This document shows, in pieces, positions 2,642 to 4,921 of a stretch of 49,295 nucleotides of DNA. This DNA is from Myxococcales bacterium (GTDB lineage Bacteria; Myxococcota; Myxococcia; Myxococcales; JAKAPL01): contig JAJXUD010000030.1 of the NCBI GenBank assembly GCA_021783235.1, positions 1 through 49,295 of the forward strand. Reading direction: 5' to 3'. Both the position numbers and the translations under genes were made by a program. Below the pieces are notes generated by a model that was given only the letters and a program-made list of their open reading frames with translations, ran no database searches and was not told the DNA's origin. Numbering within the stretch: the first letter of the stretch is position 1; each line of letters starts with the position of its first letter.

Positions 2642-3988
2642 ATGCCCCGACCGACCGGCCCCGTCGCGCTCGCCGCCGCCGTCGCGCTCGCCGCCGCCTG
2701 CCGCACCTCGGCGCCGCGGCCCGCGGCGGCCGCCGCGAAGGCCTCGGCGATCGCGATCGCCTACACGGGCGACGTCTGGGGCGAGCTCGAGCCGTGCGGC
2801 TGACCGCGCCACCCGCTGGGCGGCTTCGCCCGGCAGGCGTCGCTCCTCTCGCGCTGGCGCGGCGCCGGGATCCCCGTCCTCCTCCTCGACGGAGGCGACC
2901 TTCTCCTGCCCCCCTCCGCGGCGCCGGGCGACGAGGCCCTCTGGCGGGCCGCGCTGATCTACGGCGTCCTCGCGAAGCTCGGCGTCGCCGCGGCGGTGCC
3001 GGGCGAGGCCGACCTGTCGCTCGGCGTCGAGCGGCTGCGGGACCTCGCCGCGGGCGCGGGCGTCCCCCTCATCGCCGCGAACCTGCGCGACGGCGCGGGC
3101 GCGGCGCCGTTCCCGGCGGCCACCTCGGTCGAGCTCGGCGGCCTGCGCGTCGGCCTCGTCGGGGTCCTCTCGCCGGCGCTCGCCCCGGCGGGGTGGCGCG
3201 CCCTCCCGGCGGCCGAGGCCGTGCGGCGCGGCCTCGCCGAGCTCTCCCCGGTCGACGTCGTCGTCGCGCTCGCGCACGAGCCGCCCGAGGAGGACGCGCC
3301 GCTCGCCGCCGCGGTGCCGGAGATCGACCTGCTCGTCGGCGCCCACGGCGGGGTGGCCCGGGCCCCGACCCGGCTGCCCTCCGGCGCCATCGCCGTCCGC
3401 ACGGGGAACAAGAACCGCTTCCTCGGCCGGATCGACCTGGACGAGGCGCTCCTCGCCCGGGGTCGCGCCGGCGCCTGGGCCGCGGGCACGCTCCAGCCGC
3501 TCGACGCGTCGCTGCCGCCGGACGCGGAGATCGAGGCGATGGTCTCGCGCTACCGAAAGGCCGCGGACGCGCGCGAGCTCGCGAGGCTCACCCCCGGCGG
3601 CGAGGCGCGCCCCGAGGCGAGCGGCTACGCCGGCGAGAGGGCCTGCGAGCGCTGCCACGGCGCGGCGGCGCGGAGCTGGCGCGCGAGCCGCCACGCGCGC
3701 GCCTTCGAGGCGCTCGCGCGGGTCGGCTCGTCGCTCGACCCGTCCTGCGTCGGCTGCCACACCACGGGCTTCGGCGAGCGCGCCGGCTACGAGCGGCCCG
3801 CCGCGGTCGGCTTCCTCGCCGAGGTGCAGTGCGAGGCCTGCCACGGGCCGGGCAAGGCGCACCTCGCGAACCCGGCCGCCCCCTACCCGCCCCCCGCGCG
3901 CGGCGAGGCGCTCTGCCTCCGCTGCCACGCGGCCGAGCGGAGCCCCGACTTCGCTTACGCGGCCTACCTCGAGCGGATCCGGCACTGA
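2642..3988 (+). CDS. Candidate selenoprotein: tetraheme cytochrome c / 5'-nucleotidase-like lipoprotein
   Basis: A 448-residue reading frame contains one internal TGA (2801-2803, residue 54). A TAG at 2627-2629 forces the start to be ATG 2642. Residues 1-20 are a lipoprotein-type signal ending LAAAC, so the product is probably membrane-anchored and periplasmic. Residues 37-300 resemble a 5'-nucleotidase/UshA-like metallophosphatase-derived domain (YTGDVWGELEPCG, DGGDLLLP, HPLGGFARQ). The C-terminal part has four CxxCH heme sites at C335, C369, C397 and C425, as in cytochrome c-554-like proteins. In this family, as I know it, the N-terminal motif is EPCGC followed by GGLARR; here the UGA occupies precisely the second Cys, and homology continues in frame after it. 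Codon use is the same on both sides. I infer read-through as selenocysteine. A nonsense mutation or base error is the alternative. The true stop is also TGA. Confidence 0.82.
2801..2803 (+). other. In-frame UGA, predicted selenocysteine codon (residue 54)
   Basis: The codon reads TGA within GAG-CCG-TGC-GGC-TGA-C, giving Glu-Pro-Cys-Gly-Sec. The Cys-Gly-Sec spacing mimics the Cys-Gly-Cys redox pair of Cys-containing relatives. The base after UGA is C, a weak termination context. Confidence 0.75.
2812..2837 (+). promoter_or_regulatory. Putative bacterial SECIS element
   Basis: CTGGGCG (2816-2822) pairs with CGCCCGG (2827-2833) to make a 7-bp stem (one U-G pair) capped by the loop GCUU. The stem extends through G2815-C2834 and, past one mismatch, C2812/C2813 with G2836/G2837. 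The loop begins with G and lies 19 nt beyond the UGA, within the distance known for bacterial SECIS apical loops recognised by SelB. The fold is seen directly; SelB binding is inferred. Confidence 0.6.
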
Positions 3989-4147
3989 GAGCCGTTGAAC
4001 CCGAACCCCTTCCCCGGGGAGACCGGGAGCGACGCCCAACGCGGCGAAGGGGGGGCCTTGTCCGGGCCTCGAACACTCGGGTAGTCTGCCGGGCGCTTGA
4101 TGGCCGGGCTGCGGATGGCTAGCTTCGGCCGCGCGAGGGAGGTGCTC

Positions 4148-4483
4148 ATGGACCACTCGATGACCGACCTGCGGCGGCACCCGCGCAGGAGCCTCGCCTG
4201 GCTCGTCCAGTACCGCTTCGACGTCGGCGAGGGCTACCGGGTCGAGTACGCGCAGGACCTCTCCGAGAGCGGCCTCTTCGTGCGGACCGACCAGCCGCAC
4301 CCGCCGGGCGCCGTGGTGCAGCTCCAGATCACCCCGCGCGGCGGGGCGGGCCTCATCGAGGGCATCGGCCGCGTCGTGCGGCGCGTCGATCCCGGCAGGG
4401 GCGAGCCCGCCGGAATGGGCATCGAGTTCCTCCAGCTCGACCTCGAGACGCGGCGGGAGCTGCAGAGCCACCTCGCGGCCTAG
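4148..4483 (+). CDS. PilZ domain protein (first of tandem pair)
   Basis: A 111-residue protein made almost entirely of one PilZ domain. It has the RxxxR element (RRHPR, residues 9-13) and the D/NxSxxG element (DLSESG) that together bind cyclic di-GMP in PilZ proteins. It resembles the small myxobacterial paralogous PilZ family (TIGR02266 type, from memory). ATG 4148 is preferred over upstream ATGs at 4097 and 4100 because it follows GGGAGG at ideal spacing and the extra residues are not conserved-looking. The next gene, 42 bp downstream, is a paralog. Probable role: cytoplasmic c-di-GMP receptor affecting motility, development or surface polysaccharide; the target is unknown. Confidence 0.88.
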   Translation: MDHSMTDLRRHPRRSLAWLVQYRFDVGEGYRVEYAQDLSESGLFVRTDQPHPPGAVVQLQITPRGGAGLIEGIGRVVRRVDPGRGEPAGMGIEFLQLDLETRRELQSHLAA

Positions 4484-4525
4484 CCCGGTTGCCCCGCGCC
4501 GGCCCCCGCGGCTAGAGTCTCGGCG

Positions 4526-4921
4526 ATGGCCGAAGACGCCGCGAGCGATCCGGAGGAGAGCGAGGCCGAGAAGCGGCGCCACCCGCGCGCGCCGCTCCAG
4601 CTCCTCGTCCAGTACCGCTTCGACAGCGTCGGGGAGTTTCTCGCCGAGTACTCGAGCAACATCTCGCTCGGCGGCATCTACATCCGCACCGATCGGCCGC
4701 GCGAGGAGGGGGCGCTCATCTACCTCCAGTTCGCGCTCAAGGACGGCTCGCGGCTCATCGAGGGGCTCGGACGCGTCGTCCGCTCGAACCCGCCCGGAGA
4801 CGGGCTCCCCCCCGGCATCGAGCCGGGCATGGGGGTGGAGTTCGTGAACTTCGACCTGGAGTCGGTCGAGCTCATCGAGAAGATCGTGCAGGACCGGCTC
4901 GAGCGGGCGAAGCCGGCGTAG
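4526..4921 (+). CDS. PilZ domain protein (second of tandem pair)
   Basis: A 131-residue protein with a 15-residue acidic leader and one PilZ domain. The RxxxR motif (RRHPRA) and the NxSxxG motif (NISLGG) are both intact, so c-di-GMP binding is expected. It shares the order LVQYRFD ... LFVRTD/IYIRTD ... LIEGxGRVVR with the preceding gene, so the two probably arose by tandem duplication. It also carries a C-terminal helix (ESVELIEKIVQDRLERAK). It ends 3 bp before the convergent stop codon of glpK, leaving no room for a terminator between them. Confidence 0.88.
   Translation: MAEDAASDPEESEAEKRRHPRAPLQLLVQYRFDSVGEFLAEYSSNISLGGIYIRTDRPREEGALIYLQFALKDGSRLIEGLGRVVRSNPPGDGLPPGIEPGMGVEFVNFDLESVELIEKIVQDRLERAKPA

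Follow-up and report, generated by a model that had tools for sequence, protein, structure and literature searches.

Gene structure at the locus

The window, a 49,295-nt stretch of DNA with a GC content of 72.6%, contains on its forward strand a frame of 448 codons (2642–3988) with a lone internal TGA at 2801–2803 (residue 54), closed by the stop TGA at 3986–3988. Translated with the internal TGA as selenocysteine (Sec), the residues around position 54 read GELEPCGUPRHPLGGFARQ. Since long spurious ORFs are common at this GC content, the open frame by itself is little evidence. Composition is informative, because 2642–3988 is the only one of 48 TGA-interrupted frames of the window (at least 45 codons upstream and at least 250 downstream of the TGA) in which GC3 exceeds 0.95 on both sides, with values of 0.98 upstream and 0.99 (0.987) downstream. 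The translation and these values bear out the preliminary description of the locus, which had claimed a single TGA in an otherwise open frame and a uniform codon bias across it. Homology also spans the TGA: the match to the NCBIfam profile NF041198 has an E-value of 1.2e-73, with its best stretch at residues 23–266.

Upstream of the TGA lies a probable lipoprotein signal peptide (2642–2701; MPRPTGPVALAAAVALAAAC, Cys20), read by eye and plausible as originally proposed. Downstream are the four CxxCH heme motifs that had been counted there: CERCH (residues 335–339, 3644–3658), CVGCH (residues 369–373, 3746–3760), CEACH (residues 397–401, 3830–3844) and CLRCH (residues 425–429, 3914–3928). As had also been anticipated, a start call at GTG 2996 loses both the signal peptide and the motif containing residue 54; callers that end a gene at UGA would leave out this protein's signal and active motif.

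Genomic neighborhood analysis identified radA, two PilZ genes and an FGGY-family kinase around the gene, and the neighbors gave no functional hint either at this locus or at that of a deltaproteobacterial relative (L085). The two PilZ-domain genes adjoin each other (4097–4921) and follow the selenoprotein gene directly, in the same orientation; they are probably unrelated to it.

Domain architecture and family assignment

The N-terminal part of the protein is a UshA/5'-nucleotidase-like domain of the metallophosphatase fold (approximately residues 35–267, 2744–3442), which matches 5'-nucleotidases and SoxB in the PDB by sequence and by fold; the SoxB thiosulfohydrolase model TIGR04486 matches with 47.5 bits, below its cut-off of 550. 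The C-terminal part is a tetraheme cytochrome c554-like domain (approximately residues 284–446, 3491–3979), matching PF13435 with 57 bits, above the gathering cut-off of 20.8 (E 3.8e-15), and Nitrosomonas cytochrome c554 (1bvb; 1.7e-16, profile A1). The tetraheme C554 domain is alike in the two proteins, but the Nitrosomonas cytochrome stands alone, without a UshA-like part.

Both halves are covered by NF041198, ‘UshA-like (seleno)protein, PCGU’, a family of PCGU/PCGC proteins that unites a UshA-like and a cytochrome part in one chain, as here. Of the 519 model positions, 10–265 match the N-terminal part and 352–519 match the cytochrome part, the latter on its own with an E-value of 2.7e-35, which places the fusion within the known family. 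The suggestion that novelty might lie in the cytochrome fusion was therefore rejected; the combination of Sec and four hemes is also found in L085 and in a planctomycetotal relative (L086). At 248.5 bits the window protein stays below the curated NF041198 cut-off, 275 bits, and so ranks as a divergent relative. Full-length Cys relatives in the order likewise score below the cut-off (235 bits). The window gene further differs in carrying GGCUU instead of GGUCU in its SECIS candidate. The PCG[C/U] UshA-like family is widespread, with a match to the model in 145 of 145 genomes of the order.

The tentative remark in the preliminary description that UshA-like selenoproteins had been catalogued before was correct: COG0737 UshA-like CxU selenoproteins are listed in the GOS survey of 2008 (PMC2398784) and in two reviews (PMC13188914, PMC9312934). 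They share the Cys-x-Sec arrangement seen here, and hemes go unmentioned in the relevant portions of these sources. PCGU proteins without hemes, for example L034 from the same phylum, and likewise the paralogue L011 of the source genome, have the same motif, UshA-like domain and UGA position, but are without the cytochrome domain. The ExtKL multiheme c-type cytochrome (seleno)protein, NF040886, is another multi-heme selenoprotein, although its match is weak (E 0.1). Judged by its sequence, the window protein is thus a heme-fused UshA-like selenoprotein of a catalogued family, and the kind of protein is already known. It adds a firm further case in this order and is useful for annotation. The literature searched yielded no function for the PCG[C/U] UshA-like family.

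Divergence of the active site

Aligned to the Thermus 5'-nucleotidase 2z1a, the PCGU motif (2792–2803) falls in the loop following the first metal motif, a loop that in 2z1a is without CG[CU]. The window protein has the fold and the GG-x-x-R and LDxGD segments in common with SoxB and the 5'-nucleotidases (UshA, CD73). However, those enzymes keep the two-metal ligands, which the PCG[C/U] family has largely lost. Across 21 aligned sequences (a count that leaves out the paralogue L010), C52, G53, C/U54, G60, D83 and G85 are invariant, so that CG[C/U] is present in 21/21, and G61 and R64 are nearly so. In the same sequences the motif I His is absent, while the motif I Asp, the GD Asp, the GNHE Asn/His and the later His vary or are lost. 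The window protein itself has an incomplete two-metal ligand set (D-x-H, GD, GNHE, H, H), as the motif I His and the GNHE Asn/His are absent; D86, H212 and H235 are what is left of the metal pocket. The invariance of CG[C/U], set against variable or missing metal ligands, suggests a loss of the metal site throughout the family, with CG[CU] serving as the working site. This pairing makes a redox role directly testable. A structure predicted from four sequences has low confidence, with pLDDT values below 50, in the motif loop and in the cytochrome.

The most durable competitor to a redox role is a Sec-containing hydrolase resembling SoxB or a nucleotidase, in which Cys-Gly-Sec would provide metal ligands to replace those lost and the hemes would serve just for anchoring or electron disposal. 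The nearest folds are those of SoxB and the 5'-nucleotidases, the active-site loop contains CGU, and the three pocket residues mentioned above remain. Yet the positions of these residues vary across the family and CG[CU] does not, and Sec normally substitutes for a redox Cys. We regard such a hydrolase as unlikely.

Selenocysteine machinery and Cys/Sec exchange

The source genome (G000) is a draft of 4.58 Mb in 133 contigs, 97.45% complete. It encodes a tRNA-Sec (74.5 bits; ARAGORN agrees, calling tRNA-SeC(tca)), SelB (297.7 bits over its frame), SelA (548.9 bits) and SelD (373.6 bits). A search for selA, selB, selC and selD, the check that the preliminary description had proposed, thus recovered all four genes. 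The SelD gene (L022, G000:C96:27542-28468) has its own in-frame UGA within GGGUACKL, which makes SelD a selenoprotein itself. The molybdopterin domain PF00384 has three matches in the genome (L107 and L108 on contig C48, L106 on contig C126), and as none has an internal stop, Sec use here is seemingly not based on a formate dehydrogenase of the PF00384 type.

The UGA was expected to occupy a column where relatives carry Cys, and the exchange is found both between paralogues of the same genome and across the phylum. One paralogue (L010) has APCGC and four hemes; the other (L011) has APCGU and is heme-less. Elsewhere in the phylum, genomes have either Cys or UGA at this position. L011 (1045–2361, minus strand; G000 contig C8, about 13.8–15.1 kb) has a GGUCUG SECIS loop at +18 nt.

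At least 72 genomes of the order carry a UGA-bearing match, and among the matches listed selA is present in 71 of 72; the one exception (G049) is 80% complete. Within genus g21, G077–G082 all combine UGA with selA, whereas their congener G076 has PCGC (L057) and a selA match that is only sub-threshold. Compared with its congeners, G076 has apparently lost selA, Sec has given way to Cys in the orthologous protein, and the SECIS loop of L057 is now GGCTTG. Farther afield, L085, from a Deltaproteobacteria MAG, has Sec and four hemes, and a tRNA-Sec was found in this MAG, where the search for selA gave no match. L086, from a Planctomycetota MAG, also has Sec and four hemes, accompanied by both tRNA-Sec and selA. 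At L086 (4466–7369), two heme-fused relatives are neighbors, the first with CGU (Sec) and the second with CGC (Cys).

On the strength of the complete Sec machinery, the invariant CG[C/U], the PCGC and PCGU paralogues, the 71/72 co-occurrence with selA and the Cys form of G076 without it, the UGA at 2801–2803 is very likely decoded as Sec.

The SECIS candidate

A hairpin following the UGA, where the preliminary description had located bacterial SECIS hairpins in general, was found at 2806–2843, with its core at 2815–2834 and a GGCUU apical region from +18 nt. Its minimum free energy is −25.1 kcal/mol on 48 nt, with a z-score of −1.82 against shuffles that becomes weaker on longer stretches. The bacterial SECIS (bSECIS) consensus is a hairpin with a G at the loop start, 16–37 nt after the UGA. 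The candidate has a GGC loop at +18, but its z-score is just −1.82 and its loop is unlike the GGUCU of its relatives.

In 25/25 other Sec forms, Gly-Leu is encoded downstream of the UGA as GGT CT(G/T), starting at +18 nt, against 1/11 of the Cys forms with Gly-Leu (Fisher p 4e-8, kinship ignored). Escherichia coli fdhF likewise has GGTCT 18 nt after its UGA. Read at the nucleotide level, GGTCT at +18 nt in Sec forms is a synonymous-site signature of the SECIS. Where these 25 Sec relatives and the paralogue L011 carry GGUCU, the window gene has GGC TTC (GGCUU). This loop is the weakest link in the Sec case. It may nevertheless be acceptable to the genome's own machinery, since the SECIS candidate of SelD is also a GGC-loop hairpin. 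Raw folding energy, unlike the loop sequence, does not tell Sec forms (mean −17.4) and Cys forms (mean −17.7) apart, and an Rfam scan of the whole window gave no match.

The deviating loop and the weak z-score are what would be expected if the UGA were a genuine stop in a decaying gene that had lost its SECIS loop and whose downstream part was no longer made as a fusion. However, the downstream frame keeps 394 codons, all four hemes and its GC3 of 0.987, so no decay has followed the UGA; the 18-nt spacing is kept as well, and the GGC loop recurs in SelD. We consider decay improbable. The TGA might instead be a misread or misassembled TGC of a Cys form, as the genome is a draft of 133 contigs and one base change would restore Cys. 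Yet many independent genomes carry UGA in this column, as does a paralogue, and the Sec machinery is present, which makes such an error very improbable.

Proposed function

The reading that we prefer, at a probability of about 0.78, is an exported, probably lipid-anchored tetraheme selenoprotein in which Sec54 derives from the UGA and a metal-less metallophosphatase fold carries a Cys-Gly-Sec redox site working with the hemes. Its first step has strong support: the UGA at 2801–2803 would be read as Sec by the complete Sec system, creating the Cys-Gly-Sec sequence. Its place is the loop downstream of what in 5'-nucleotidases is the first metal-ligand motif, and the c554-type tetraheme domain is next in the chain. 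The fold may have lost its two-metal site and work instead through the Cys-Gly-Sec pair, which could cycle between a selenolate/thiol and a selenenyl-sulfide state or bind the sulfur or selenium atom of a substrate. Electrons would then be exchanged with the four hemes and thence with other periplasmic cytochromes. The substrate would most likely be a sulfur, selenium or thiol/disulfide compound. Functionally, we infer an exported Cys-Gly-Sec redox center, built on a metal-less metallophosphatase fold and coupled to c554-type hemes.

More tentatively, and with somewhat less than even odds in our estimate, the protein could stand for a class of exported selenoenzymes in which a 5'-nucleotidase/SoxB scaffold, deprived of its metal site, has been turned into a Cys-Gly-Sec redox center wired to four hemes, with a SelB that accepts both GGC and GGU loops. 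The GGCUU loop of the window gene offers a possible test of how strict SelB recognition is.
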